DNA of 64,000 bases, taken from the NCBI RefSeq assembly GCF_029210385.1, contig NZ_JARGDQ010000008.1, positions 62,001-126,000 on the forward strand, given 5' to 3'. Of the stretch, positions 49,709 through 64,000 are shown one piece after another. Source of the DNA: Desulfurivibrio dismutans (GTDB lineage Bacteria > Desulfobacterota > Desulfobulbia > Desulfobulbales > Desulfurivibrionaceae). The notes below the pieces were generated by a model that saw nothing but the letters and a program-made list of their open reading frames with translations, was not told the DNA's origin and did not search any database. The translations under genes were made by a program, and so were the position numbers. The first letter of the stretch is position 1; the number at the start of each line of letters is the position of its first letter.

Positions 49709-50526
49709 CGCAGATTAAACAGGCGGCGGGCATTGGCCGTGGTCTGTCGGGCCACCGCCGCCGGTGCACAACCTTTGAGTTCGGCGACCTTGGCGGCGAT
49801 ATGGGCTAGATAGGCCGGCTCGTTGCGCTTGCCCCGCAGGGGCACCGGGGCCAGAAAAGGGGCGTCGGTTTCCAGCAGCAGGCGCTCTAAAGGCACCATC
49901 CGCACCGCCTCCCACAGGGTGGCCGCCGACTTGAAGGTCACCACCCCGGGGATGGAAACATAAAAACCCATAGCCAGAACCTCTTCGGCCAGGGCGGCAT
50001 CACCGGAGAAGCAGTGCATCACCCCACCGGCCGGCAGCTCGCCGGCTTCACGCAAAATAGCCAAGGTATCGGCATGGGCCTCCCGGTCATGAATGACCAA
50101 CGGCAGCTCAAGCTGCCGGGCGATTGCCACCTGGTGGGCAAAATGCTCACGCTGCAGGGGAGCCGGAGAATACTCCTTGACATAATCAAGACCGATCTCA
50201 CCATAGGCCACCACCCGGGGATGCCGGCCCAACTCCTGCAGGGCCTGATAATCATCGGGGCCGATTTCGTTTACATGATGGGGATGCACCCCTACAGTGG
50301 CAAAAACGCCGGGCCATTGTTCGGCCAGTTCCACCCCTTTCCGGGAAGAGGCCAGATCGATCCCGACAGTGATCATCTGACGCACTCCGGCCTGTGCCGC
50401 CCGCTTGACAACCTGCTCCAGGTCGGCCTGGTAGTCGGGAAAGTCCAGGTGACAGTGGGTATCGATCAACTCTGCCGCCGCCAATTCCTCCGCCACCATA
50501 CTTTTTGTTTTTGTTGCTGTTGCCAC
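49705..50526 (-). CDS. tatD: TatD-family metal-dependent nuclease
   Basis: A 273-residue TIM-barrel hydrolase. Metal ligands are in LIDTHCHLDFPDY, AYGEIGLDYVKEYSP, LVIHDREAHADTL, GGVMHCFSGDAALAEE and LLETDAPFLAPVPLRGKRNEP. The full TatD/YcfH signature is intact. E. coli TatD proteins are 3'-5' exonucleases linked to DNA repair and quality control. The first 18 residues are a variable lead, so the start could be the internal ATG at codon 10. Confidence 0.92.
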   Translation of the reverse strand: MATATKTKSMVAEELAAAELIDTHCHLDFPDYQADLEQVVKRAAQAGVRQMITVGIDLASSRKGVELAEQWPGVFATVGVHPHHVNEIGPDDYQALQELGRHPRVVAYGEIGLDYVKEYSPAPLQREHFAHQVAIARQLELPLVIHDREAHADTLAILREAGELPAGGVMHCFSGDAALAEEVLAMGFYVSIPGVVTFKSAATLWEAVRMVPLERLLLETDAPFLAPVPLRGKRNEPAYLAHIAAKVAELKGCAPAAVARQTTANARRLFNLR

Positions 50527-50854
50527 TGTTCACTCCTTCCTCTGCCGTCAAGTTGACTCCCAAACATAACAATCCGGCCCCTTCTACCAAATTAACCTCG
50601 CCACTGCAATGTTTCGCACCGTTATCCCTGCCGTTTACGCAGGCTCCCGTAAAAGTCGTACCTGGACGGGGACCGCGAAGCCCGCTGCCAAAACCATTGA
50701 CCTTAACGGAACCCTTCCACCTACGGCCTTTTCATTGACAGCGGCAAGAGCGCAGACTATCATTTACTGAGTTATCGTCGAGGTACCGTCCGGATTCTGA
50801 CCATCGCTCGGGCCGGTGCCGGCTCATTCAATTTCAACTGCCGCCCGACAAGCC
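50527..50854. promoter_or_regulatory. Divergent gap with promoter for the nitroreductase gene
   Basis: TTGACA (50735-50740) and TATCAT (50758-50763) are 17 bp apart and point to the nitroreductase gene about 90 bp away. The remainder of the 328-bp gap contains nothing else that I recognise. Confidence 0.6.
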
Positions 50855-51364
50855 ATGCAGAATCCAGTTCTCGAAGCCATCTACCGTCGCCGCAGCGTTC
50901 GCGAATTCACTCCGGAACAAGTTTCCACTGAAGTGTTGCAGGAAATCATCCGAGCCGGCATCTGGGCCCCTTCGGGACTGAATAATCAGCCTTGGCGTTT
51001 TGTGCTGGTTGGCGACGAGCAAACCCGCGAACAACTGGCGGCACTAACCAAGTACCAGAAAATCGTGCTGGCCGCCCCGGCCCTGATCGCCGTTTTTCTC
51101 GACCAAAATGCCATGTACGACCAGGTCAAGGACCACCAGGCCGCTGGCGCGTGCATCCAAAACATGCTGCTGGCCGCCGAAGCCTTGGGACTGGGGGCGG
51201 TCTGGCTGGGGCAGATTCTGCACCACAAGGATCAGGTTCGACAGGTGCTGAAACTTGACGATCATCTCGACCTGATGGCGGTTATCGCCCTGGGCCGGCC
51301 GGTGATCAAGGAACGCCATTCCCAGCGTAAACCCCTTGAGGATTTTATTCTCAAATCAATTTAA
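50855..51364 (+). CDS. Nitroreductase-family FMN oxidoreductase
   Basis: A 169-residue enzyme. The typical start NPVLEAIYRRRSVREFTPEQ carries the FMN-phosphate arginines. GIWAPSGLNNQPWRFVLVGD is the flavin/substrate loop, QAAGACIQNMLLAAEALGLG the core helix, and VIALGRPV the end. It is in the small-subfamily range. An in-frame GTG at 50816 would add 13 residues, but the internal ATG gives the better match. It probably reduces quinones, nitro compounds or flavins using NAD(P)H. The lipoprotein gene follows 26 bp after it. Confidence 0.87.
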   Translation: MQNPVLEAIYRRRSVREFTPEQVSTEVLQEIIRAGIWAPSGLNNQPWRFVLVGDEQTREQLAALTKYQKIVLAAPALIAVFLDQNAMYDQVKDHQAAGACIQNMLLAAEALGLGAVWLGQILHHKDQVRQVLKLDDHLDLMAVIALGRPVIKERHSQRKPLEDFILKSI

Positions 51365-51390
51365 TTCGCTCAACACCAGGAGGATCCCCA

Positions 51391-51939
51391 ATGTTTATGC
51401 AGGCCAACCGCTTACCCAAGAGCTATCTTGCCGTACTGGTTTTTTTCTTCCTGCTGCTGCCTTTGCTGGCCGGCTGCACCCATCATGAAAATACCGGCCC
51501 CGAGGCCCGGGAAAACACCCAAACCACCGAGGAAAGACGGCCGGAGCCCTACACCCCCTCCGGCTTTCACGACCTGCTGATTCCCGCCGAACTCACTTGG
51601 TTGCGCGAAAAAAGCATGGTGGTCAACACCGATTCCTACGCTGGCGGAGTACTCCACTTCAGCGGTCGGGTGGACGTCAACTCGCTGACCGACTTTTTCA
51701 CCACCACCATGCGGCGTAACAACTGGCAACTGGTGGGCTCGGTTAAATACCAGGATGTGATGATGGCCTTTACCAAGCCGCACAAAACCTGTACCATTAT
51801 CATCAGCGACCGGGGCCTGGGCCGGGCCAACGAGGTTCAGGTCTATATCACCGACGATCTGAGCAAAAGCCGGCAGCGGGATTCCGTTGCCCCGTCGCCC
51901 GTCGCCCCAGCTACCCCGGCGGCGCCCTTTTCTTTCTAA
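51391..51939 (+). CDS. Lipoprotein of a conserved deltaproteobacterial type, unknown function
   Basis: A 182-residue lipoprotein with signal LAVLVFFFLLLPLLAGC and a lipobox Cys29. A polar tether follows. The folded part (about 55-155) reads IPAELTWLREKSMVVNTDSY, GVLHFSGRVDVNSLTDFFTT and YQDVMMAFTKPHKTCTIIIS. I recall similar proteins in sulfate reducers, annotated as DUF-containing lipoproteins, with one or two repeats of this GVLxFSGRV...L..FF pattern. AGGAGG precedes the ATG. Alanine/proline repeats end the protein. The role is unknown. Confidence 0.6.
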   Translation: MFMQANRLPKSYLAVLVFFFLLLPLLAGCTHHENTGPEARENTQTTEERRPEPYTPSGFHDLLIPAELTWLREKSMVVNTDSYAGGVLHFSGRVDVNSLTDFFTTTMRRNNWQLVGSVKYQDVMMAFTKPHKTCTIIISDRGLGRANEVQVYITDDLSKSRQRDSVAPSPVAPATPAAPFSF

Positions 51940-51993
51940 ACCACCAGACGCCGTCACAGCAGGGTAGTTTTGACAACCTCACCAAAAGCCACC

Positions 51994-52071
51994 CAGCGTG
52001 TTGCTCGGCAACGCAAAAACAGCTTGCTGCAGTGCGCGCCCAGTCGGCGGCACGGCAAGAGCGACGCTGAC
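51994..52071 (+). repeat. Palindromic repeat B2, 78 bp
   Basis: The ends CAGCGTGTTGCTC and GAGCGACGCTG form an imperfect stem. The sequence GGCAACGCAAAAA, then GCTGCAG, then GCGACGC and GAC aligns with repeat B1 on the opposite strand. It lies in the gap before coaBC, which supports the later TTG start of that gene. Confidence 0.55.
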
Positions 52072-52099
52072 AATTTTTACTTTTCCATACGGAGGCAGC

Positions 52100-53308
52100 T
52101 TGTCTTTTCTGCTCAACGATAAACGCATCCTCCTTGGGATCAGCGGCGGTATTGCGGCCTACAAGGCGGCGGACTGGGTCCGGCAACTGCGGCGGGAAGG
52201 GGCCGAAGTAACGGTGATGATGACCGACGCCGCCCAAAGCTTCGTCACTCCACTGACCTTTGCCGCCCTGTCCGGCAAACGGGTGCATACCACCATGCTG
52301 GCGGCGGAAGACGGCGAATACCTGCCCCACATCAATCTGGGCCGGGATCACGACCTTGTTTTGCTGGCGCCGGCAACCGCCAACACCATCGCCCGGCTGG
52401 CCCGAGGCCAGGCCGATGAACTGGTCAGCACCGTGGTGCTGGCCGCCCGGGCTAAAATTCTGCTGTGCCCGGCAATGAACAGCGAAATGTACCGGCATCC
52501 CGCCACCCAGTACAACCTGGGCCGGCTGAAGGAATACGGTTACACCATCATTGAACCGGACTGCGGCGAACTGGCCTGCGGCGACCAGGGTCCCGGCCGG
52601 CTGGCCGAATGGGAAACGGTGCGCCAGGCCGTTATCGCCGCCCTGACCCCCCAGGATCTGCTAGGGCGCAATATTCTGGTCACCGCCGGCCCCACCTGGG
52701 AGCCCCTGGACCCGGTGCGCCTGCTCACCAACCGCTCCAGCGGCAAAATGGGCTACGCCCTGGCCGCTGCCGCCCGGCGGCGCGGGGCCAGCGTGACCCT
52801 GGTCAGCGGCCCGGGCTCCATCACCCCCCCGGCCGGGGTGGAGCTGATCCCGGTGGTCACCGCCACCGAAATGCACCAGGCGGTCTGCCAGCGGGTCGAT
52901 AATACGGATATCATGATCATGGCGGCGGCGGTTTCCGATTATCGGCCAGCGCATTATGAACCCCACAAAATCAAAAAAGGCGCCACCGATGCCGCGCTGC
53001 CGCTGGTCTCCAACCCGGACATTTTAAGGGAGTTGGGCGAGCGCAAAAAAAGCGCGGCCTGCTTCCCGCTGCTGGTGGGTTTTGCAGCCGAAAGCGAAAA
53101 TCACCGGGACGAGGGACAGCGCAAGCTGACCAGCAAAAACCTCGACCTGATCGCCATCAATGACATCAGCGCCGAAGACGCCGGTTTTGCCGTTGATAAC
53201 AACCGGGTTACCCTGCTGGACCGTAACGGCGCCGTCGAGGAACTGCCGTTATTGAGCAAAGAAGAAGTGGCCCACCGGATCCTCAACACCATCCTCCGGC
53301 TCATCTGA
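52100..53308 (+). CDS. coaBC: CoaBC phosphopantothenoylcysteine synthetase/decarboxylase
   Basis: A 402-residue bifunctional enzyme of coenzyme A synthesis. The start is TTG 52100 with GGAGG five bases upstream; the family N-terminus LLNDKRILLGISGGIAAYKA begins there. The CoaC half has HINLGRDHDLVLLAPATANT and the PAMNSEMY motif (PAMN). The CoaB half starts at about residue 188 with NILVTAGPTWEPLDPVRLLT, then NRSSGKMGYALAAAARRRGA and the catalytic VSDYRPAHYEPHKIKK. The length matches E. coli Dfp (406). Confidence 0.95.
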   Translation: MSFLLNDKRILLGISGGIAAYKAADWVRQLRREGAEVTVMMTDAAQSFVTPLTFAALSGKRVHTTMLAAEDGEYLPHINLGRDHDLVLLAPATANTIARLARGQADELVSTVVLAARAKILLCPAMNSEMYRHPATQYNLGRLKEYGYTIIEPDCGELACGDQGPGRLAEWETVRQAVIAALTPQDLLGRNILVTAGPTWEPLDPVRLLTNRSSGKMGYALAAAARRRGASVTLVSGPGSITPPAGVELIPVVTATEMHQAVCQRVDNTDIMIMAAAVSDYRPAHYEPHKIKKGATDAALPLVSNPDILRELGERKKSAACFPLLVGFAAESENHRDEGQRKLTSKNLDLIAINDISAEDAGFAVDNNRVTLLDRNGAVEELPLLSKEEVAHRILNTILRLI

Positions 53309-53323
53309 AACAAGGAGAAAGAA

Positions 53324-53524
53324 ATGGCCAGCATCAAGATCAAAGGCATGACCTGCGCCCATTGTGTGGCCTCGGTCACCAAGGCCCTGAGCAGCATCAA
53401 CGGAATCGAGGACGTGCATGTCAGCCTGAGCGGCAACCAGGCCGACTTCACCTTAACCAAAGAGGTGCCACTGGAGACCATCAAGGCCGCCATCGAAAAA
53501 ATCGGCTTCGAGGTGGAGGGGTAA
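53324..53524 (+). CDS. copZ: Heavy-metal-associated domain protein, copper-chaperone type
   Basis: A 66-residue ferredoxin-like HMA protein with the metal site GMTCAHC (CxxC) near residue 9, followed by the standard betalphabeta pattern (VTKALSSINGIEDVHVSLSG, ETIKAAIEKIGFEVEG). It binds Cu(I) or a similar ion and passes it to an ATPase; none is adjacent. It lies 15 bp after coaBC, with AAGGAGAAAG before the ATG. The stop sits in GGTAAACGG, which resembles the ends of A repeats, possibly by chance. Confidence 0.87.
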   Translation: MASIKIKGMTCAHCVASVTKALSSINGIEDVHVSLSGNQADFTLTKEVPLETIKAAIEKIGFEVEG

Positions 53525-53537
53525 ACGGCACCCACCG

Positions 53538-55127
53538 TTATTCTGTGATCACCCTGGCCAGAATGCGCTGATTGCAGTGGTTGTCCTTCCCTGCCACCAA
53601 ACTGGTGATGCTACAGGCATCGAGAGTTTCAGCCACCGACATGGTACCTTCGGCGGAATTGCGCCGGGCGGTGAAGGGAAAGCTATCCGGCCCGCGCTGG
53701 CACTTGCTGTTGATGTTGATCCGGCAAACCTGGTTGAGCAACAACCGGGCCATGGTACTGATCTTCTCCTCTTCCCGGCCGAAAATACTGACCTGCTGCC
53801 CGAACTCCGACTCCGCCACATAACGCCGGGCTTCTTCCAGCGCGTCAAAACTCACCACCGGGATCAGCGGCCCGAACTGCTCTTCATGAAAAAGACGCAT
53901 ATCCGGCCCCACCGGGTAGAGCACCGCCGGCGTCATCAGGGTTTGCCGGGTCTCGCCGCCGCCTGGGTTGATAATCCTGGCCCCCTTGGCCAGGGCATCG
54001 GCCAGTAGTTCGCCAAGGTAGGCCACCCGGGCCGGTTCCGGCAGAGGAGTAATCCTGACCCCCGACAACCAGGGCATCCCCATGGGCTGCCGTTGCACCT
54101 CCCGACTTAGCTTCTCCAGAAACGGCGCCGCAACCGACCTGTGCACCAGGAGGATTTTCAGGGCCGTACAGCGCTGGCCGTTGAAGGCCAAGGCACCAAG
54201 CACACATTCCGCCGCCGCCTGTTCCAGATCAGCGTCGTCGAGGATAATGGCGGCGTTTTTGGCCTCCAGCCCCAGCAGGCAGCGCAACCGGCCTGGGTCC
54301 GGATGCCAGCTGCGCAGCAGCTCCGCCCCCCGGCGGGAGCCGATAAAGGCCAGTAGATCAATCCGCCCCGATCTCAGCACCGGCGCCAGTACCGTCTCGC
54401 CTTCGCCATACAGGGTATTGACCACCCCGGGCGGAAAGCAGTCCCGCAGCAACGGCAACATGACCCGGTGCAGCAGTACCCCCAGGCGCGGCGGTTTGAA
54501 AATCGCCGTATTGCCCATGAGCAACGCCGGAATCAAGGTGGTGTACGTCTCGTAGAAGGGATTATTGTAAGGTCCCAGGCAAAGCGCCACCCCGAGGGGC
54601 GCCCGCAACCGGCGGGCGACCACTCCCTGCTCCCGCAACAAATCCCCCTCCCGCTGACTGCGCCGGCGCAACTCGGCAACGGTCTCAGCCAGGTACTCCA
54701 TGGTCCGGGTAAACTCCATGGCGGACTCCTCCCGGCTTTTACCGATTTCCCACATCAGCAGCCGCACCACTTCTTCCCGGCATTGCTCCATCGCGGCCAG
54801 CAGTTTTTCCACCCGCTCAAGGCGCCGGACCGCCGGCATGGCAGGCCATTCACCCCTGCCCCGGTTATAGGCGGCACCAGCCGCCGCCAGCACCTCTTCC
54901 GCCTCCCGACTCCCCAGCAGCGGGTAGCTTCCCAACCGCGGCGGAGCCAGCGAACCGTCGGCGGCAGCCAGATACACCGAGGAAAAAACGTCCTGCACCG
55001 GACCGTCCCAGGTGCGCAACTCACCATTGCACAGATAATGGTGCTGCTCAACACCGGGGCCGGGACGGTACGGATTGGGGATCGCGGCCGAAGAGGCAAA
55101 AAATCCGGCCAAAGCGTTTGCATTCAT
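53538..55127 (-). CDS. gapN: Non-phosphorylating glyceraldehyde-3-phosphate dehydrogenase (GapN-like aldehyde dehydrogenase)
   Basis: A 529-residue aldehyde dehydrogenase. The start at 55127 has GAGG upstream. ALDH landmarks are CLGPYNNPFYETYTTLIPAL, the glutamate in GLEAKNAAIIL, and the catalytic cysteine in FNGQRCTALKILLVH. The C-terminal NINSKCQRGPDSFPFTARRN with SAEGTMSVAETLD is typical of GapN, which oxidises glyceraldehyde-3-phosphate to 3-phosphoglycerate with NADP. It is longer than the usual 475-500 residues because of the N-terminal 45. It is divergent from the sigma54 activator gene, 195 bp away. The substrate call is by motif. Confidence 0.8.
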   Translation of the reverse strand: MNANALAGFFASSAAIPNPYRPGPGVEQHHYLCNGELRTWDGPVQDVFSSVYLAAADGSLAPPRLGSYPLLGSREAEEVLAAAGAAYNRGRGEWPAMPAVRRLERVEKLLAAMEQCREEVVRLLMWEIGKSREESAMEFTRTMEYLAETVAELRRRSQREGDLLREQGVVARRLRAPLGVALCLGPYNNPFYETYTTLIPALLMGNTAIFKPPRLGVLLHRVMLPLLRDCFPPGVVNTLYGEGETVLAPVLRSGRIDLLAFIGSRRGAELLRSWHPDPGRLRCLLGLEAKNAAIILDDADLEQAAAECVLGALAFNGQRCTALKILLVHRSVAAPFLEKLSREVQRQPMGMPWLSGVRITPLPEPARVAYLGELLADALAKGARIINPGGGETRQTLMTPAVLYPVGPDMRLFHEEQFGPLIPVVSFDALEEARRYVAESEFGQQVSIFGREEEKISTMARLLLNQVCRININSKCQRGPDSFPFTARRNSAEGTMSVAETLDACSITSLVAGKDNHCNQRILARVITE

Positions 55128-55322
55128 GCTGAAAATCCTCACAATAGCTCAAGCGGCCCGAACAGGTGGGGCCCGGCCACCGGCAACCGGCAGCCCAAAA
55201 AATGTTTCATGATACTGCGGCCGGAGCGGTTTGACAACGCGATTTCCACGGACCTTCTTGACTTTGAGGCCACCCTGACGTAAGTTATGGTAACTAATCC
55301 GGCTTATCAACGAGGGAAAGTC

Positions 55323-56834
55323 ATGTTTCAACTGCTGGAGTGTTCTCCCCTGCCGCAGTTTGCCGTGGGGCTGGACAATAAAATCACCTACTGGAACAAG
55401 GCCTGTGAAGCTCTTACCGGCTTCAAGGCGGCCGAAATGATCGGCACTGACCGGCACTGGGAGCCCTTCTATTCTCACAAACGGCCCATTGTTGCCGACC
55501 TGGTGCTCAACAACGACCTCAACAGCTTTTTCCAACTCTATCAAGACAAAAACCCCGGCCAGTCGCGGATCATTCCCAACGCCTGGGAGGCCTTCGACTG
55601 GTTCCGGATGTGCGGCCAGCCTCTGCACCTGCACTTCATGGCCGCCCCGGTCTTCAACGAACAGGGCAAGCTGGTGGGGGCGGTGGAAACTCTGCATGAT
55701 CTTTCCGGGCGGATGCTGGCCATGCTGGCCCCCTCGGAAAACACCCCCCCGGGCCTTGCCGGCCAGACCGGGCGCACCAGCTTCCTGCGCCACAATATCC
55801 GCTTCGGCCTGCTGGTGGGCAACAGCCCGGCCATGCAGCGGGTTTATGATCTCCTGGCCAAGGCGGCTGGTTCCAATGCCAACGTGATCATTTACGGGGA
55901 ATCGGGCACCGGCAAAGAGGTAGTGGCCCGCACCATTCATGACTTAAGCCACCTCGCCAAAAGAAATTTCGTGGCGGTCAACTGTGGCGCCATCCCCGAG
56001 ACTTTAGCGGAAAGTGAATTTTTCGGCTACCGCAAAGGGGCCTTCACCGGCGCCAACACCGACCGCGAAGGCTACCTGGACCAGGCCGACGGCGGCACCC
56101 TGTTCCTGGACGAAATCGGGGAAATCAGCCTGGCCATGCAGGTCAAACTGCTGCGAGTGCTGGAAGGCAGTGGTTTCTGTCCGGTGGGCAGCCGGGAAAC
56201 CCGCAAGCCCGATGTGCGAATTGTCGGGGCTACCAGTCGCGACATGGAACAGCTGGTCCGGGACGGCAGAATTCGCCGGGACTTCTTTTACCGCATTCAC
56301 GTGATTCCGGTACAACTCCCCCCTCTGCGGGACCGCAAAGAGGACCTGCGTGCCCTGACCGACCATTTTATCAGCAAATTCAACCAGGATAACCGGGAAA
56401 TCACCATTTCCGAAGAAATTTACCAGCGGCTGGAACAATATCCCTGGCCCGGTAATGTCCGGGAACTGCAGAATGTGATCCAACGCTACCTGACCCTGGG
56501 AGAACTGGTTTTCACCCCCGCCGGCCCGGGCGCCCCAGGAGCCCCGGTGGTTGCTGAGCATCCTGGAACAGATAAGACATTGGCCACGCCGGCCCTCAAT
56601 ACTCCGGGAGTTATCGCGTCTTTGCCTTCTGCCCCTGAAGTCGCCTGCGTCCACACCGACTCCGCCGCCCTGCTTCGCAGCCATGGCGGCCTGGAGGGAA
56701 TGATCTCCACCATCGAGCGGGAACTGATCCGACAGGCCCTGGAAAGCAACCAGTGGCACCGGGAAAATACCGCGATGATGCTGGATATTTCACGCAAAAC
56801 CCTGTTCCGCAAAATGCGTCATTTCAATCTTTAG
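55323..56834 (+). CDS. Sigma54-dependent enhancer-binding activator (PAS-AAA-Fis)
   Basis: A 503-residue bacterial enhancer-binding protein. GAGGGAAAG precedes ATG 55323, which directly starts the PAS domain (LPQFAVGLDNKITYWNKACE); an upstream in-frame ATG lacks such a site. The AAA+ core is at about residues 165-395: GESGTGKEVVARTIHD (Walker A), the sigma54-contact loop GAFTGAN, GGTLFLDEIGEI (Walker B), and RRDFFYRIHVIPVQLPPLRD. The C-terminus has a Fis-type helix-turn-helix (HRENTAMMLDISRKTLFRKM). There is no receiver domain, so the PAS domain senses the signal. A sigma54 promoter and small-RNA-like unit lie 204 bp downstream and are the obvious candidate target. Confidence 0.92.
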   Translation: MFQLLECSPLPQFAVGLDNKITYWNKACEALTGFKAAEMIGTDRHWEPFYSHKRPIVADLVLNNDLNSFFQLYQDKNPGQSRIIPNAWEAFDWFRMCGQPLHLHFMAAPVFNEQGKLVGAVETLHDLSGRMLAMLAPSENTPPGLAGQTGRTSFLRHNIRFGLLVGNSPAMQRVYDLLAKAAGSNANVIIYGESGTGKEVVARTIHDLSHLAKRNFVAVNCGAIPETLAESEFFGYRKGAFTGANTDREGYLDQADGGTLFLDEIGEISLAMQVKLLRVLEGSGFCPVGSRETRKPDVRIVGATSRDMEQLVRDGRIRRDFFYRIHVIPVQLPPLRDRKEDLRALTDHFISKFNQDNREITISEEIYQRLEQYPWPGNVRELQNVIQRYLTLGELVFTPAGPGAPGAPVVAEHPGTDKTLATPALNTPGVIASLPSAPEVACVHTDSAALLRSHGGLEGMISTIERELIRQALESNQWHRENTAMMLDISRKTLFRKMRHFNL

Positions 56835-56857
56835 CGCCACTATCCCTGTCGCGCCCC

Positions 56858-56883
56858 AAAATGGGTCGAGTCTGACCCATTTT
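56858..56883 (+). terminator. Perfect inverted repeat after the activator gene
   Basis: AAAATGGGTC (56858-56867) and GACCCATTTT (56874-56883) form a 10-bp stem with loop GAGTCT, 23 bp past the stop and followed by CGTTTTA. It is best read as a terminator. It could instead be an operator for the activator, being a dyad about 160 bp before the sigma54 promoter. Confidence 0.6.
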
Positions 56884-56934
56884 CGTTTTACCCCCAATAA
56901 TCAACAAAATACAGAACATTAACAGGAAACCGAT

Positions 56935-57054
56935 GTGACACTTATGTCTCACCGTGATTTTCCTGCTCCGGCCCTCAACCACTCAACAGAAGAATATTTT
57001 CAATGATATTATATTGTTACACAAAAAGAAAGATTATTGGCACACAGCTTGCTA
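56935..57054 (+). promoter_or_regulatory. Sigma54 promoter with upstream dyad
   Basis: TGGCAC (57038-57043), five bases, then TTGCTA (57049-57054) is a consensus sigma54 promoter, with GG at -25/-24 and GC at -13/-12 for a start at 57064. About 90 bp upstream, GTGACACTTATGTCTCAC (56935-56952) is a dyad matching at 7 of 9 half positions, at the usual distance for an enhancer-binding protein. The AT-rich sequence between them would suit DNA bending. Confidence 0.8.
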
Positions 57055-57063
57055 ATACTAAAT

Positions 57064-57170
57064 GACAAAACCAAGCCCCCTCCGTCAGCAGGTCTTCGAG
57101 CCGGAACCAACCTGCTGATACCCCTGTAATGCCCCAGGTGTTCCCCAACACTTGGGGCATTACTTTTTTT
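57064..57170 (+). ncRNA. Candidate sigma54-dependent small RNA, about 107 nt
   Basis: The unit starts 12 bases after the -12 box. It contains no reading frame with a ribosome-binding site. A single-stranded C-rich stretch CCCCCTCC (57076-57083) could pair with GGAGG-type ribosome-binding sites. A first hairpin follows (TCAGCAGGT 57085-57093 with ACCTGCTGA 57110-57118), then a strong terminator (arms 57126-57142 and 57147-57163, 17 bp with one G-T pair) and seven T residues. This plan, sigma54 promoter plus short structured RNA plus terminator beside an activator gene, is like that of Vibrio Qrr or Pseudomonas CrcZ RNAs, without sequence identity that I can recognise. Confidence 0.7.
57126..57170 (+). 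terminator. Strong intrinsic terminator of the small-RNA unit
   Basis: GTAATGCCCCAGGTGTT pairs with AACACTTGGGGCATTAC across a CCCC loop, followed by seven T residues. No protein-coding gene lies between it and the sigma54 promoter, so the transcript it ends is non-coding. Confidence 0.92.
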
Positions 57171-57202
57171 GTAAGCGATCACGGGGCACCGTGATTACTC
57201 AC
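57171..57202 (+). repeat. Truncated short palindromic repeat
   Basis: The first 20 bases, GTAAGCGATCACGGGGCACC, are identical to the start of the element at 42820. Here ATCACGG pairs with CCGTGAT after a GGCA loop, and TACTCAC follows instead of the normal interior. It directly abuts the T-run of the small-RNA terminator. Confidence 0.6.
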
Positions 57203-57318
57203 ACTTTGTCACCAGCCAACCAGCCACCAGCCACCAGTTGGTACCAAAACCCGTTGCATTGCCGCCCCCTCTTGGCTATTCTCAGCGATACTAAAAATCC
57301 TTCCCGAGGTTATCAGCT
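57203..57318. other. Gap before the FmdE-like gene
   Basis: The 116 bp contain no recognised element apart from CGAGG before ATG 57319. Together with the activator terminator, the sigma54 unit and the short repeat, it makes up the 484 bp without protein genes between 56835 and 57318. Confidence 0.5.
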
Positions 57319-57909
57319 ATGGAAAGTTTTGAACAGTTGCTGGAAAAATCCACCACCGTACATGGCCACATCTGCGCCGGTCAAGTTATCGGCGTGCGCC
57401 TGGCGATGATCGGCCTGCGGGAAATTGCTATCGAAGACCCCAGGGAGAGTCAGCGCAAGGATTTTTACGTGGTGGTGGAAATCGACCGCTGCGCCACCGA
57501 TGCCATCCAAAGCGTCACCGGTTGCACACTGGGCAAACGTTCCTTGAAATGGCTCGACTACGGCATCATGGCCGCCACCTTCGTCAACCTCAAAACCGGA
57601 AAAGCGGCCCGCATCACCGCCCGCGAGGAAGCACGGGAACTGGCCCGGAAATACTGCCCGGAAATTGAGGACAAATATCAGCAGCAACTGCAGGCCTACC
57701 GGGTCATGCCAGAAGAGGAGCTGTTTAAAATCCAGCCGGTGCAGGTGGAAGTACCCCAGGAAGACCTGCCGGGCAAACCCCTGCGCCGGGTGCAATGCCA
57801 GAGCTGTAATGACTGGGTCCAGGACTGCCGGGAAGTTGAGCAAAACGGCAAGACTCTCTGCCGCCCCTGCGCCACCGGCCGCTACTACCAGTTAGTCGAG
57901 TCAGCCTGA
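57319..57909 (+). CDS. FmdE-family protein with C-terminal zinc ribbon
   Basis: A 196-residue protein. The N-terminal 125 residues match the FmdE domain: TTVHGHICAGQVIGVRLAMI (conserved His and Cys), the segment DFYVVVEIDRCATDAIQSVT and GCTLGKRSLKWLDYGIMAAT. The C-terminal 60 residues contain two CxxC pairs (VQCQSCNDWVQDC and TLCRPCATG), a DksA/TraR-like zinc finger. FmdE proteins accompany molybdenum or tungsten enzymes but are not their catalytic part. The next gene is a molybdopterin-binding protein, supporting a role in molybdenum enzyme maturation or metal supply. Confidence 0.85.
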   Translation: MESFEQLLEKSTTVHGHICAGQVIGVRLAMIGLREIAIEDPRESQRKDFYVVVEIDRCATDAIQSVTGCTLGKRSLKWLDYGIMAATFVNLKTGKAARITAREEARELARKYCPEIEDKYQQQLQAYRVMPEEELFKIQPVQVEVPQEDLPGKPLRRVQCQSCNDWVQDCREVEQNGKTLCRPCATGRYYQLVESA

Positions 57910-58061
57910 CAGCCTTGCAGACAACCGCCTGAGATATTGGCCGACGAGTCAAAAAACAATAATTAAATTCCCAATCCGCGGCGCAGCCATAACGACGCCG
58001 ACAAGTTTCATTGCCTCAGACTTTCCCCGGTCCTGTTGGCAAGATAACAAGGAGAACCTCC

Positions 58062-59102
58062 ATGGCAAAAACTGTCCCGGTGGCAGAGGCGGTCGGCATG
58101 GTCCTGCCCCACGACATAACCGAGATCCGCAAAGGAGAGTTCAAGGGCCGGGCCTTTCGCAAGGGGCACATCGTCCGGCCCGAAGACGTCGAACACCTCA
58201 AGCGGCTGGGCAAAGAACATATCTATATCCTGGAACTGGGGCCTGCTGATATTCATGAAGATGAAGCGGCCCGGCTGCTGGCAGCCGCTCTTGCCGGGGC
58301 GGGAATCGAGGTCGGCGGTGAACCGGTGGAGGGCAAAATCAATCTCTGCGCGGCCCACGACGGCCTGCTGCAGGTGGATCAGGAAGCCTTATATCGCTTC
58401 AACCTGCTGGGGGAGGTGATGTGCGCCACCCGGCACGGCAAAACCCCGGTGAAAAAAGGACAGCAGGTGGCCGCCACCCGCCTGATTCCTTTGGTGGGCA
58501 ACCGCCAGATAGTCGAAGAAGCGGTGGCCCTGGCCGGCAATCAAGGCCGGGGAACAGTGCGGGTCGAGGCTTTGCGAACCGCCCGCGCCGGCCTGGTGAT
58601 CACCGGCAACGAGGTTTTCCACGGCCGCATCAAGGATGCCTTTGAACCCATTCTGCGGGAAAAACTGGCGACCCTGGACTCGGCGGTGATCATGGTCCGC
58701 AAGGCCCCGGATGATACCGCCAAGATCGCCACCGCCATCGATGAATGTCTGGCGGCGGGGGCCGATCTCATTGTTACCAGCGGCGGGATGTCGGTGGACC
58801 CCGATGATGTCACCCGGGAGGGAATTGCCCGGGCCGGCGCCCAAGAGATCACCTACGGCACCCCGGTGCTGCCCGGAGCCATGTTTCTGGTGGGCTACCT
58901 GCCTTACCAGGGGCAGGAGATCCCGGTGCTGGGGCTGCCCGCCTGCGGCATGTTCCATCGCACCACGGTGTTCGACCTGATCCTGCCCCGGATTTTAGCC
59001 GGCGAGAAAATCGACCGTCAAACCCTGGCCCGCATGGGCCACGGCGGCCTCTGCCTGAACTGCAAGCACTGCCAATACCCGGTTTGCCCCTTCGGCAAGT
59101 AG
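58062..59102 (+). CDS. MoeA/MogA-like molybdopterin-binding protein with C-terminal Cys cluster
   Basis: A 346-residue protein; the start at 58062 has AAGGAGAA upstream. It opens VPVAEAVGMVLPHDITEIRK, as in MoeA-related proteins. The MoCF-biosynthesis domain is at about residues 175-320: RAGLVITGNEVFHGRIKDAF, LIVTSGGMSVDPDDVTREGI, and TYGTPVLPGAMFLVGYL. The last 25 residues add a C-L-N-C-K-H-C-Q-Y-P-V-C cluster that could bind a metal or iron-sulfur centre. This is the FmdE-linked branch of molybdopterin-binding proteins; the upstream gene is FmdE-like. The true reaction is unknown. It converges with the chemoreceptor gene. Confidence 0.85.
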   Translation: MAKTVPVAEAVGMVLPHDITEIRKGEFKGRAFRKGHIVRPEDVEHLKRLGKEHIYILELGPADIHEDEAARLLAAALAGAGIEVGGEPVEGKINLCAAHDGLLQVDQEALYRFNLLGEVMCATRHGKTPVKKGQQVAATRLIPLVGNRQIVEEAVALAGNQGRGTVRVEALRTARAGLVITGNEVFHGRIKDAFEPILREKLATLDSAVIMVRKAPDDTAKIATAIDECLAAGADLIVTSGGMSVDPDDVTREGIARAGAQEITYGTPVLPGAMFLVGYLPYQGQEIPVLGLPACGMFHRTTVFDLILPRILAGEKIDRQTLARMGHGGLCLNCKHCQYPVCPFGK

Positions 59103-59138
59103 CCAAAGGGGCAACGCACCGCGGGCTGACACGCAGAT

Positions 59139-60941
59139 TTAATCCCGCCCCTTGACCAGGGCGGTGAGTACGCCCACCATCTCTTTCATCTGTTCGGCCT
59201 GACCGTTCAACTCCTCGGCGGCACTGGCGGCCTCTTCGGCGGCGGCGGCGTTCTGCTGAGTCACCGAATCCATCTCCGAGACGCCGTTGTTGATCTGCTC
59301 CACCCCGGATGACTGCTCCCGGGAAGCGGCGGCGATCTCGCCCATCAGCGAGGATATCTTGACGATACTTTCCGAAACCTGGTTAAAAGAGGTATCGGTG
59401 GCACCCACCAACTGGCTTCCGGCCTGGATCTTGCCCACCGTACCTTCGATCAGGCTGGCGGTGTTGCGGGCGGCCTCGGAAGCCCGCATGGCCAGATTCC
59501 TAACCTCATCGGCCACCACCGCGAAACCAGCGCCGGCCTCACCAGCCCGGGCCGCCTCCACCGCCGCGTTCAGGGCCAGCAGATTGGTCTGGAAGGCAAT
59601 TTCATCGATGGTTTTAATGATCTTAGAAGTCTCTTCGCTGGCTCGCGAGATTTCGGCCATGGAATCGGTCAGCTGGTGCATGGACTGATTGGCGCTTTCC
59701 ACCACCTGGCGGGCCTCACTGACCAGGATATCGGCCTGGCCGACATTGTCGGCATTCTGCTTGGTCATGGAGGAGATCTCTTCCAGGGAGGCCGAGGTTT
59801 CCTCAATGGCGGCGGCCTGGTTGTTGGCCCCGTCGGCCAGTGAGTGACTGGCCGACGAAACCTCTTCCGAGGCCGCCGACACCTGGCTGGCGCCGTTTTG
59901 TAACTGATCGGAAACGTCTTCCAGGGTACCGATCAACAGCAAGGAAAAAAAGCGGGCCAGGAAAAGCAACAGCAGCAGCAGCACCGTCGCCGCCACCACC
60001 CCGCCAATCAGGGTGTTGCGGGCCTGGGCGATGCGTTCGCCGGCCATTTCCTCAATTCCCTCGGCCAGCCTGGTTTCAACTTCTTTCATCAGGTCGATTT
60101 TGGCGGTTATGGTGTCAAACCAGCGAGTGGCATCAATACCAAACCCCCCGGCCTGCCAGCGATCAAGAGCCGTTTTTTCCATTGCCGCCACCTGCTCCAC
60201 CGCCGTTGCCCGCATTTTTTCACGATAAAAGCGCCGGCTTTGCTCATCGGCAAAAGCTTGGAAATTGTTCAAAAAAACCTGGCGGGCGGAAAGCAATTCG
60301 GCATAGCGCTGAAACATTCCCTCGGCAAACCGATCCTGGGCAAAGACGTTGCTCAACACCGCCCGGGTGATCCCCATCCGCTCCTTGGCCTCAACAAAGT
60401 TGTAATAAGCGGTCAGGACCCGCATGATCTCCTGATCCGGACTGGCGCCGGCGATCAGCGGAATGGCGCCGAGAAAACCTTCGATGGCGGCGGAATAAAA
60501 AGCGATGGCTTCCGGCCCGGGGATCGCCAAAGAGTCGGCCCGGCGGCGTATTTCATCCAGCCGCTCCAGGTTGGCCATGCCCTGGCGTAAGCGGTTATTG
60601 ATTTCCTGGTCATTTCGCACAATGGCAGAATCGGCCATAAATTGGCGCAAAGCCTGGATATCCCGGTCGGTGGCCGCCCGCTGCCCGGACAAACGGGTGC
60701 CGAACTGCCGCCCCTGGCTGCCGATAAAGCCGGCGGTCATGCCGCGTTCCAACTGGGCCTGGTGGGCAATTTCGGTGGCCATGGTCGCCACCACCGCCAA
60801 CTCCTGCAGTTCCTTGGCCTGATTATACAACCGATAGCGCTCCAGGCCGTTGTACAGCAGAACCCCCACTAAAAAAGTCACCGGCACAAACACCAGCAAC
60901 TGCATCATGGTGATAATTCTGAGCTTCTTGAAAAAATTCAT
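59139..60941 (-). CDS. Methyl-accepting chemotaxis protein with NIT sensor domain
   Basis: A 600-residue chemoreceptor. The start at 60941 (GGAGACGAG upstream) gives a first membrane helix ([20 protein letters not shown]). The periplasmic part carries a NIT (nitrate/nitrite-sensing type) pattern, [19 protein letters not shown]. The second helix is at about 310-335 ([20 protein letters not shown]). The signalling domain is complete: [20 protein letters not shown], the tip [20 protein letters not shown] with [19 protein letters not shown], and the C-terminal helix. It ends in ALVKGRD without the NWETF-type CheR pentapeptide. The ligand is unknown. Confidence 0.92.
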
Positions 60942-61365
60942 GACTCGTCTCCAGTTGTGAAGATATCGTGACAACCGGCCAAATTTGTTGAGCGGCAACG
61001 GAAAAAACAATGAGCTTACAGCACGTACCCGACCGGCGGCCCAGTTCTGACCTGGCCGGCCGTTATATTATTCAGGGTCGCAGCATAAACTGACACCATG
61101 TATCGGACGGAACTTTACCACAGGAGCCCGATGAATCGCCCGCCAACAACGAATTGAGCATCATACCGGAAAACAGTTATAGCATTTACAAAACGAAAGT
61201 AAAGAGCTTAATTGATAATTTTTATCTTTTAATTGGACCCGGAATCATAAAGTGTTGATTCCCGCCACCGGGCTTTTTTGTTATACAGAAGCAAGTCATT
61301 TTGGCCGACCAGCCCTGTGCCGGCGGCGGCCGCCGACCAATTCGTTCCCAGGAAGGAAAATCAGG
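60942..61365. other. Divergent intergenic region with hairpin and T-run upstream of the methyltransferase
   Basis: The 424 bp have no gene that I can support. Near the right end CCCGG (61238-61242) pairs with CCGGG (61268-61272), with an inner AATCA/TGATT stem, and CTTTTTTG follows. This is a terminator-shaped element in front of the methyltransferase, with no plus-strand gene before it. It could be an attenuator in the leader. The 60 bp to its left are A/T-rich and may contain the promoter. Confidence 0.4.
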
Positions 61366-61992
61366 ATGCCACACCACTTACAATCGACCCTCGCCAACCT
61401 TGACCATTGCCAAAAACACGAAGAAGATTTCAGCCGCTGCGAGGTGTTCATCAACGTCAGCAACCGCTTTCTGGGGCTGCTGGCCTGGGAGGCCAGTCGC
61501 GACAGCGACAACGATACCAGCCGGGAATACCCTTTTGTGGCCATGGACAGCCGTCAGGTTTTCCGCCAGCTGGCTCTAGCCCGTCGGCAACTGGACCTGG
61601 AGCAGGAGGAGCCGGCCAGCCCTGCTCCTTCATTTCTGGATGTCGGCTGCGGTATCGGCAATGTGATGCTGCTGGCCGAGCAGATGGGATTCGAGGTTTA
61701 TGGACTGGAGAAGGATCGCAAACCGTGTGCCGTGGCCAGGAAATTGTTTGGCCCGGAACGAGTAAGCGACAGCGACATCTGGGAATACCGGGAGTATCAC
61801 CGCTTTCAGGTGATTTACTATTTCCGCCCTTTTGCCGATCGGCAACTGCAGCAGCGGTTTGAGAAGATGATCGAAGACAAACTGCAGCCCGGCGGGATCC
61901 TGATTGCCAACCACAAAAACAGTGATATTATCGACACCGATTCCCGCTTTTCCCGCCTGCACCCGGAATTGCCGGCATGGTGCAAGAGATAA
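61366..61992 (+). CDS. SAM-dependent methyltransferase, class I
   Basis: A 208-residue protein; ATG 61366 follows GGAAGGAAAA. Residues 85-195 hold a Rossmann methyltransferase core: SFLDVGCGIGNVMLLAEQMG (motif I), FEVYGLEKDRKPCAVARKLF with the acidic residue of motif II, VIYYFRPFADRQLQQRFEKM, and LQPGGILIANHKNSDIIDTD. The N-terminal 80 residues are helical, without a recognised domain. The substrate is unknown, and the neighbours do not tell. It converges with the molybdoenzyme gene. Confidence 0.8.
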   Translation: MPHHLQSTLANLDHCQKHEEDFSRCEVFINVSNRFLGLLAWEASRDSDNDTSREYPFVAMDSRQVFRQLALARRQLDLEQEEPASPAPSFLDVGCGIGNVMLLAEQMGFEVYGLEKDRKPCAVARKLFGPERVSDSDIWEYREYHRFQVIYYFRPFADRQLQQRFEKMIEDKLQPGGILIANHKNSDIIDTDSRFSRLHPELPAWCKR

Positions 61993-62035
61993 CCTTATCA
62001 GCAGCACCGCAGGTTGCCCCTGGTGGACGACTAGC

Positions 62036-64000
62036 TCAAGACCGCTCTTTCCTGATACGGACAAAATTGTTGCGTAACGCCCGCACTCCGGTAATCGGAT
62101 TGGCAGTGGCGCGGCTCATCAGTGAGCCGTCGGCCACTCCCTGATGAAAGGCCCGGCTCAGCAGATGGGAACGGTGGCCGAAGCCATGCACCAGGTAAAC
62201 GCAGTCCGGCCGGATGTCGCGACTCACGTAAAGTCGCACGGTACGCAGGGCGGTCAGGCCATCCTGGTTTTCCAGCAGCACCCGGTCACCGCTACCCATC
62301 CCCAGGCCGGCGGCCACCTCTTCGTTGAGCCACAGTTCGTTTTCCCCCTGCTCGCTCATCAGGCGGCGGTTGTTCTGGGTGCTGCTTAAGGTATGCAGCT
62401 GGGAACGGCCGTAAAGCAACCGAAAATAACCGGCCGGGGGCTCCGGCGGTGGCCGGAACTGCGGCAACGGCGCCTGGGCGGCTTCGGCCAGATCACGGGA
62501 AACCAGTTCAATTTTGCCGCTCAGGGTGGGAAACCTGAACTCAGCCAACTGCGGCTCCGCTGCCGCGGGCAGGGAGACAAAGGCCCGCCCGCGGCGCAGA
62601 TCATCAAGACGCAACCGCCAAGTCGTCAGGTCATGCTCCAGGCGGGAACTCACCTCCGGGTACCGCAAACCCCGGCCACGCCCCAGGCGAATGCTGAGCT
62701 GGCGGACGATCCAATAAGGATCACGAGCTTCAAAGGCCGGCGGTAAAACGGGAAAGCGGGCGGTCAGCAATGGCGGCTCGACCTCACGGCGCAGCTCCAC
62801 CCGGTCGCTGCGCTCCAGAAAGGTGGCCTCGGGCAGAATGATGTCGGCCATCAGGCAGGGCTCACTGGGCACCACATCACAAGCAAAAATGAATTCCGCC
62901 CGCCGCCAGGCCAGAGAGGTGCGGTAGGGATTGGGGTAACCGTGAAAAGGGTTTTGCCCCCAGCAGCCAAGCACCTTGATCCGGTCGGCCTCCAGATCTT
63001 TAAAAATCTCTTCGGCCCGTTCACGGCTGTCCGGTTGCAATGCCCTGGCCAGCCGCTGGCGGCTCCGGGCATAAGGTGTGGCTTCAGCCCCAGGTTCGTT
63101 AACTCCGGGCAACGGCATTCCTCCCGGCCGGCCCGGCGCCCCCAGCAGGGCGGCAAGAATGGCCTGGGCCCGCAAACGGTCGACATCATCGCCATACCAG
63201 TTGCTGTGCCGGCCCGGGTGAATGATCACCGCCGGCGCACTGGCGGCCAGCCGCCGGGCGCTCTGCTCAATGGCCTTGGGGCTTAAGCCGGTCAGCTCGG
63301 CAACCCGCTCAAGGGGATAAGCTGCGGCATGTTCCCGCAACTCATCCAGGCCTAAGGCATGGGCCGCGATATAGTCCCGATCGAAAAGATCACGCTGCAG
63401 CAGGTAGTTGATCCAACCCAGCAGCAGCGCGGTATCACTGCCCGGTTTGAGCATCAGATGCTCATCGGACTGGGCGGCAATGACACTGCGTCGGGGGTCG
63501 GCCACGATCAAGTGGGCGCCCTGTTCCTGGGAATCCATGAAGCGGCGGAATTCCGGCAACATCAGGTTCTCCCCGAAATGGGATCCCAGCAGCACCAGAC
63601 AACGGGTGCGCTCATAGTCCACCCGGGCCGGCGCCCCCGGGTCAAAGCCGAAGGTGGCCAGGTAGGCGGCCTCCCGGTTGCAACGGCAGTGTTCGTAGTG
63701 CGAATCGTTGACCCGGGAGGCACCCAACTCGGTAAAGAGTTCTTTGATATAGGCCGCCGAGGGGCCGGCGGCAAAGAGGGCCAGAGCATCCGGGCCATGG
63801 CGGCGCAGGGTCTGTTCCAGGCGCAGAGAGATGACGTCAATGGCCTCGGCCCAGCTGATTCGCTGCCACTGCCCGCTACCCCGGGGCCCCACCCTTTTCA
63901 TGGGATATTTCAGCCGGTCGGGGTCATAAAGCAAATCCGGGGCCGCCATGCCCCGGGCACAGATCAGGGAGCCATTGAGGTGGTTGTCACCGGTACCGGC
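62036..64000 (-). CDS. Molybdopterin oxidoreductase, polysulfide/thiosulfate-reductase-like catalytic subunit (5' part outside window)
   Basis: The frame is open through the right edge, so the N-terminus lies outside. The visible 654 residues start in GDNHLNGSLICARGMAAPDL, the last part of the 4Fe-4S site with its cysteine. Then comes the bis-MGD core: YDPDRLKYPMKRVGPRGSGQ, RISWAEAIDVI, CLVLLGSHFGENLMLPEFRR, LIVADPRRS, VIIHPGRHSNWYGDDVDRLR, and the C-terminal dinucleotide-binding domain GYFRLLYGRSQLHTLSSTQN. The active-site region shows CRCNREAAY, with cysteines rather than an in-frame UGA. The overall pattern is of the PhsA/PsrA group, but arsenate, tetrathionate or other reductases are not excluded without the remainder of the gene. 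Confidence 0.8.
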   Translation of the reverse strand, partial: AGTGDNHLNGSLICARGMAAPDLLYDPDRLKYPMKRVGPRGSGQWQRISWAEAIDVISLRLEQTLRRHGPDALALFAAGPSAAYIKELFTELGASRVNDSHYEHCRCNREAAYLATFGFDPGAPARVDYERTRCLVLLGSHFGENLMLPEFRRFMDSQEQGAHLIVADPRRSVIAAQSDEHLMLKPGSDTALLLGWINYLLQRDLFDRDYIAAHALGLDELREHAAAYPLERVAELTGLSPKAIEQSARRLAASAPAVIIHPGRHSNWYGDDVDRLRAQAILAALLGAPGRPGGMPLPGVNEPGAEATPYARSRQRLARALQPDSRERAEEIFKDLEADRIKVLGCWGQNPFHGYPNPYRTSLAWRRAEFIFACDVVPSEPCLMADIILPEATFLERSDRVELRREVEPPLLTARFPVLPPAFEARDPYWIVRQLSIRLGRGRGLRYPEVSSRLEHDLTTWRLRLDDLRRGRAFVSLPAAAEPQLAEFRFPTLSGKIELVSRDLAEAAQAPLPQFRPPPEPPAGYFRLLYGRSQLHTLSSTQNNRRLMSEQGENELWLNEEVAAGLGMGSGDRVLLENQDGLTALRTVRLYVSRDIRPDCVYLVHGFGHRSHLLSRAFHQGVADGSLMSRATANPITGVRALRNNFVRIRKERS

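Follow-up and report, generated by a model that had tools for sequence, protein, structure and literature searches.

The 64,000-nt window analysed here, from the genome of the soda-lake bacterium Desulfurivibrio dismutans, holds a short gene that probably encodes a small RNA dependent on sigma54, acting in trans on acetate genes by base pairing and run by the activator encoded beside it; this reading is drawn from sequence comparison. In the mechanism we propose, the activator, on binding palindromes that lie about 104 and 176 bp ahead of it, would fire a sigma54 promoter at 57038. An RNA of ~107 nt would then be made and would end at its own terminator. Two of its segments, AAGCCCCCUCC and AGCCGGAACCA, would pair with the leader of the acetyl-CoA synthetase gene acs, and the same segments would probably also pair with the leader of a DUF4212/sodium-solute symporter operon, so that pairing would tune acetate activation and uptake.

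Throughout, the first genus refers to the window's own genome (G000) and two congeners (G001, G002), and the second genus, which belongs to the same family, to G009 and G011.

The predicted RNA gene and its conservation

The features of the locus are as follows, with coordinates given in the window.

55323-56834, plus strand: gene for a PAS-AAA-Fis sigma54 activator (enhancer-binding protein), in an open frame from 55287; Pfam PAS, Sigma54_activat and HTH_8
56862-56879, no strand assigned: distal activator-type palindrome, TGGGTCG-AGTC-TGACCCA, 1 of 14 bases off TGGGTCA-N4-TGACCCA
56934-56951, no strand assigned: proximal palindrome, weak in the first genus, 4 of 14 bases off
57038-57053, plus strand: -24/-12 sigma54-type promoter box, exact consensus, kept in five genomes
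57064-57170, plus strand: small RNA gene, ~107 nt, from the predicted +1 to the last T of the T-run
57073-57083, plus strand: segment A, AAGCCCCCTCC (in the RNA AAGCCCCCUCC), unpaired
57084-57119, plus strand: hairpin 1, the loop of which is segment B
57099-57106, plus strand: segment B, the hairpin-1 loop AGCCGGAA (in the RNA AGCCGGAACCA); the loop sequence is also given as GCCGGAACC
57126-57170, plus strand: hairpin 2 and T-run, forming an intrinsic terminator (stem-loop 57126-57163 with 17 pairs and a loop of 4; seven T at 57164-57170)
57319-57909, plus strand: FmdE-family gene, the downstream neighbour (Pfam FmdE)

The promoter box consists of TGGCAC (57038-57043), five bases and TTGCTA (57049-57054), with the predicted +1 at 57064. 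The first-pass annotation had positioned this box correctly, and it is the sole exact match to the consensus (TGGCAC-N5-TTGCT) within the window. By itself the box proves little, because the window contains three matches to TGGCACRNNNNTTGCW with at most one mismatch where 1.85 are expected; the reality of the RNA is decided by conservation, both among the congeners and in the second genus, and not by the box alone. The preceding gene had been read as a PAS-AAA-Fis activator, and Pfam confirms PAS, AAA (Sigma54_activat) and Fis-type HTH_8 domains and finds no receiver domain; GAFTGA is present in the translation. On the other side of the RNA gene, the FmdE-family gene is followed by a gene for a MoeA-like molybdopterin-binding protein (57319-59102 for the two), and a chemoreceptor gene with a NIT (nitrate/nitrite sensing) domain is encoded on the minus strand at 59139-60938. 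Reduction of nitrate to ammonium is reported for the genus (PMC5516251).

The two hairpins, the terminator stem of 17 pairs and the seven T residues that had been described can all be read directly from the sequence. The RNA has a predicted folding energy of -47.3 kcal/mol (z -6.98), and since none of 200 shuffled sequences was equally stable we count the fold as beyond chance; its four homologues have z-scores of -6.15 to -7.86. From its 5' end the fold presents an unpaired part with AAGCCCCCTCC, then the two hairpins in turn and finally the T-run. An ATG frame of 18 codons begins at 57062, two bases ahead of the predicted +1, and was rejected as coding because it is not found in any of the four relatives with the RNA, which agrees with the earlier view that no translatable frame is present. 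A search of window positions 50000-64000 against Rfam 15 returned no family at its gathering score. The sole Rfam match on the RNA itself was to NsiR1, at 18.5 bits where 39 are needed (E 9.8), and the Qrr, CrcZ and GlmZ families gave no match on it up to E 10. The T-run together with the next 22 bp (57164-57192) matches seven other places in G000 over 22-28 bp, and by its sequence this stretch may be a short repeat (GTAAGCGATCACGGGGCACC-like) that is scattered over the genome and adjoins the RNA gene here.

G000 contains the RNA once. In a search with 156 bp of DNA across 58 genomes, its own included, the matches in G002 (93% identical) and G001 (87% identical) both span the region from the -24 box to the T-run, and the other matches listed are short. 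The flanks of the RNA gene drift in a wider alignment of the congeners. The gene order activator, RNA, FmdE, MoeA-like is kept in G002, and also in G001 up to the end of a short contig. In the second genus the activator is 67-68% identical over about 400 residues, and its gene is followed by the box, by AAGCCCCCTCC, by a hairpin 1 with a different stem but the same loop AGCCGGAA, and by a second hairpin starting TGTAATGCC, with FmdE as the next gene downstream. The expectation that box, hairpins and T-run would all be conserved downstream of activator orthologues was thus borne out in the two congeners, and in the second genus it held for the box and the hairpins and failed for the T-run, which is absent in both G009 and G011. 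Segment A is identical in all five RNA-bearing genomes. The second-genus RNAs also have an extra 5' hairpin (L043:1302-1328 and L047:1308-1333) that the first genus lacks, the stem of which differs in sequence between G009 and G011 and stays paired.

In the alignment of hairpin 1, 28 of 28 cells are paired, with two pairs left unjudged in the rows of the second genus, where a gap of two columns interrupts the helix, and 4 of the 10 pairs are changed on both sides. The pairing score was reached by 8 of 500 shuffles in a test underlain by only three distinct sequences. A covariance model built from the first genus alone, a type of search that the first-pass annotation had suggested, recovers the RNAs of the second genus from 112 kb of searched sequence, with E about 1e-4. 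Model R1, run on 249 genomes of the order, gave strong matches in the three first-genus genomes only and missed both second-genus RNAs, the filters being stricter above 40 genomes. Five other genomes had one weak R1 match each (E 4e-4 to 0.043), and these were judged to be chance, as they come without CCCCCTCC or AGCCGGAA and without an adjoining sigma54 box. When 257 genomes of the order were searched with a pattern, exactly five matched, namely the five with the adjoining activator. The fold and the conservation from box to T-run support the proposal of a separate RNA gene, which would be transcribed from the predicted +1.

Complementarity to the acs and symporter leaders

Leaders were ranked by their duplex energy with the two exposed RNA segments in a 464-kb sample of G000, which consisted of the window and 20 stretches of 20 kb (one picked for DUF4212); intergenic status was not used as a filter, and acs was not preselected. 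The acs leader ranked first, both among 385 leaders taken as 110 nt together with 15 nt of the gene and among 439 taken as 150 nt, and the product of the top-ranked gene is an acetyl-CoA synthetase (TIGR02188 above cut-off). The loop is predicted to pair with this leader over 10 perfect bases, GCCGGAACCA with TGGTTCCGGC, compared with 11 in two unrelated leaders, and segment A is predicted to pair with GGCGGAGGG and CUUGG. The Shine-Dalgarno-like GGCGGAGGG lies upstream of the proper acs ribosome-binding site and is invariant in the five RNA-bearing genomes, in a leader alignment with 60% mean identity. Segments of the RNA that are conserved and unpaired complement a leader element that is itself conserved, in a gene not linked to that of the RNA. 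Duplex energies of the whole RNA were uninformative, since that calculation pairs everything.

The occurrence of these sites follows that of the RNA. We sought acs in 16 genomes at E<=1e-180 and found it in 14, the exceptions being G006 and G008. GGAGGG and TTCCGGC are both present in the 150-nt acs leader in 5/5 genomes with the RNA, and neither is present in the acs leaders of 9/9 genomes without it, among which G007 has the shorter TTCCGG. Matched with the loop of its own genus, the acs leader shows runs of 10, 10, 10, 9 and 9 bases, compared with 7, 7, 7, 8 and 8 for the loop of the other genus, and the own-genus runs were reached by 11, 4, 3, 27 and 26 of 5000 shuffles. The total duplex energy was reached by 0 of 300 shuffles in each first-genus genome and by 2 of 300 in G009, and was not significant in G011 (49/300). 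As RNA-less genomes gave 8/300 (G040, second-genus segments) and 13/300 (G027, first-genus segments), energy alone fails to separate the second genus.

The DUF4212 leader of G000 contains GGTTCCGG, which is complementary to the RNA's loop, together with a hairpin that carries GGGGG in its own loop. The two elements are found again in the DUF4212 leaders of G001 and G002, and both are absent in G003, a further genome of that genus that is 77% complete and in which the RNA was not found. The loop run in this leader is 8, 9 and 8 in the three genomes (3/3) with RNA and gene, and only 4-5 in seven genomes without the RNA, of which none carries a loop-matching site. The symporter leader ranks 16th of 439 in the duplex-energy ranking, and DUF4212 had no match in the second genus (G009, G011). 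Because the sites are ordered A then B in acs and B then A in DUF4212, one simple double pairing suits only DUF4212.

Bipartite patterns were rejected as a unique signature of targets, since they also match elsewhere: GGAGGG-N2..24-TTCCGGC has 9 matches, and GGTTCCGG-N15..44-GGGGG has 15 matches at 12 places in G000. Among the matches listed, the site in acs is the only one to recur across the five genomes in matched sequence as well as in place. The first-pass annotation had envisaged that a CCUCC stretch would act on ribosome-binding sites. The complement of this C-rich segment (GGAGGGGGCTT, one mismatch) has 45 matches in G000 against 63 for a reversed control, and with no genome-wide excess we rejected a general anti-Shine-Dalgarno role; what survives of the idea is the match to the conserved GGCGGAGGG in the acs leader. 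That annotation had not singled out the hairpin loop AGCCGGAA, which looks at least as important as the C-rich segment.

The activator, alternative readings and the direction of regulation

Upstream of the RNA promoter, the palindrome form TGGGTCA-N4-TGACCCA is found in two copies in the five genomes. The distal copy lies 172-177 bp ahead of the box and is 0-1 of 14 bases off, and in the window it also resembles the terminator stem of the activator gene; the proximal copy lies 103-105 bp ahead of the box and is 4 of 14 bases off in the three first-genus genomes and 0-1 off in the second genus. With at most two mismatches allowed, sites number 2-5 per genome, no more than a reversed control gives (2-12), so there is no excess of the motif as such. 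Of 17 sites in the five genomes, the 7 at the RNA locus have a sigma54-type box nearby, the pairing of box and palindrome in G001 being judged from the alignment as the site is near a contig end, and the 10 away from the locus have none within about 420 bp. Two further palindromes on contig C28 of G000 have no sigma54 box nearby. The fixed distances and the kept synteny suggest that the RNA is probably controlled by the neighbouring activator, as had been proposed, and we infer from the sequences that this protein would bind at the palindromes.

Orthologues of the activator at E<=1e-120 are found in 12 of 116 relatives, own genome included. Seven lie outside the family. In three of them (G049, G040 and G027) the next gene downstream is DUF4212, which encodes the small subunit of a sodium/solute symporter, and in two of these three a clean sigma54 box precedes it. 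The gene row in G040 and G027 is activator, sigma54 box, DUF4212, symporter and acs, and the G040 proteins match TIGR03647, TIGR03648 and TIGR02188 above cut-off. In G049 the same activator-type palindrome is located between the activator orthologue and DUF4212. This palindrome lies inside an inverted repeat of about 46 bp (L096:2982-3027). The remaining four orthologues outside the family have other downstream genes. In G044 and G053 (L099, L102) the activator is followed by a membrane sensor that is Cache-domain-like by sequence reading. As DUF4212, symporter and acs follow it directly in another family, the activator is tied to acetate-type substrates, and it is probably a regulator whose ligand would be acetate or a related short-chain acid.

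The upstream neighbours of DUF4212 are of similar length in G002 (L257:689-6533) and G049 (L256:297-5489), with 162-163 and 644-646 residues. The activator gene lies between DUF4212 and these neighbours in G049 and does not do so in G002, which fits the activator having moved away. Somewhat short of probable is the further reading that the locus records regulatory rewiring, in which the activator, separated from the symporter and acs genes, would hold them in trans via an RNA at its own promoter, with the RNA and its target sites co-evolving between the two genera.

The RNA could be real and sigma54-dependent and yet serve other targets, its acs and symporter matches being coincidence or an inherited leader element with another role. 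The restriction of the leader ranking to a 464-kb sample and the many places matched by the G+C-rich segments speak for this, but we consider it unlikely, given that the acs site alone recurs in five genomes among the matches listed, that the loop fits acs best within its own genus, that the sites are absent in RNA-less genomes, and that the activator is linked to these very genes in another family.

The position of FmdE, on the same strand and starting about 150 bp past the T-run, and the second-genus hairpin that is kept while the T-run is missing, would both suit a 5' leader, transcribed from the sigma54 promoter, that governs the FmdE and MoeA-like genes through a conditional terminator and yields no free RNA. 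Such an arrangement is quite improbable. The minimum-energy and centroid folds of the first genus are both terminated, and the prediction for the window's RNA gives this single fold and no alternative anti-terminator; the conserved segments match acs, and the FmdE leader ranks 376th of 439. FmdE matches (E<=1e-15) occur in 95 of 116 genomes, against the RNA in 5 of 257, so that FmdE and the MoeA-like gene form a widespread unit independent of the RNA, and the FmdE gene probably stands outside the RNA system. That the acs leader is a sponge titrating an RNA with real targets elsewhere is very improbable: sequence sets no direction, and the exposure calculations given below disagree between genera and targets, but the symporter leader is matched by these RNA segments too, and acs and symporter are the natural regulated genes in view of their cis arrangement elsewhere.

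For the preferred reading, an RNA pairing in trans with acetate genes, we regard activation and repression as about equally probable. Blocking the loop site of the second-genus acs leader, as pairing in vivo might do, raises the predicted exposure of the ribosome-binding site in 16/16 set-ups, from 0.28-0.52 to 0.54-0.70. For acs of the first genus, predicted exposure changes little in either direction when the loop site is blocked and mostly falls when the segment A site is blocked; for DUF4212 it falls in most set-ups once the loop site is blocked. Unmasking of the ribosome-binding site as the single mechanism for both genera and both targets is not supported by these calculations. A positive role is suggested by the activator orthologue, which stands before the same genes and appears to act on them positively in cis, and by the predicted masking of the acs ribosome-binding site by the loop site in the second genus; the drop in exposure (for the symporter, and for first-genus acs with segment A) and the known RNAs that repress acs bring the balance back to even. 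In G000 and G001, an in-frame GTG precedes the acs ATG and has a Shine-Dalgarno-like GGAGGG about 10 nt ahead of it, an arrangement not kept in G002, and hiding a decoy start at that GTG would be another possible mechanism. D. dismutans is reported not to use acetate with the acceptors tested (PMC12142623), which creates a tension for an acetate circuit. In this species acs may serve carbon scavenging.

Relation to known systems

Small RNAs under sigma54 control are few. Qrr in Vibrio, CrcZ/CrcY in Pseudomonas and Azotobacter, and GlmY/GlmZ in enterics are sigma54-linked regulatory RNAs, and the RNA described here shares that link, but these families have no Rfam match to it. GlmZ is described as a base-pairing activator in PMC7073468. 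In Desulfovibrio vulgaris, the sigma54 regulators DVU0679 (Dv_sRNA2) and DVU0653 have as their listed target a non-coding RNA just downstream, and the function of Dv_sRNA2 is stated as unknown (PMC4641369, PMC3333781). Compared by description, the arrangement is alike, a sigma54 activator with an RNA right downstream of its own gene. Unlike DVU0679 and DVU0653, which are two-component response regulators, the activator here has a PAS domain and no receiver domain.

Small RNAs that act on acs are also on record. RoxS of Bacillus subtilis and IsrR of Staphylococcus aureus have acsA among their targets and both lower it, and for RoxS a predicted pairing with the Shine-Dalgarno region of acsA and a shortened half-life of its mRNA are given (PMC8216469, PMC10433868, PMC11257911). 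By description they resemble the present RNA in that acetyl-CoA synthetase is a target, here a predicted one, and they differ from it in belonging to Firmicutes, in their control and in having global targets. In gamma-proteobacteria, according to PMC5436829, acsA is controlled by CrbS/R, which is alike as dedicated regulation of acs and differs as two-component transcriptional control. Among the open-licence papers listed on Desulfurivibrio small RNAs and on small RNAs with acetyl-CoA synthetase and sigma54, no report of this RNA was found in the titles, abstracts and passages covered. There are precedents both for an RNA next to a sigma54 activator and for the action of RNAs on acs, and it is their combination that appears to be new.

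Whereas the D. vulgaris RNAs beside activators came without known targets, the RNA described here combines a structure that is conserved with a likely activator, for which there are sites, and with named, predicted metabolic targets, in a genus that offers cultured species and public RNA-seq. If the proposed circuit is true, a transcription factor would have kept its regulon after the break-up of gene order by exchanging promoter contact for an RNA, and the locus would provide an entry into the control of acetate genes in haloalkaliphilic sulfur bacteria.
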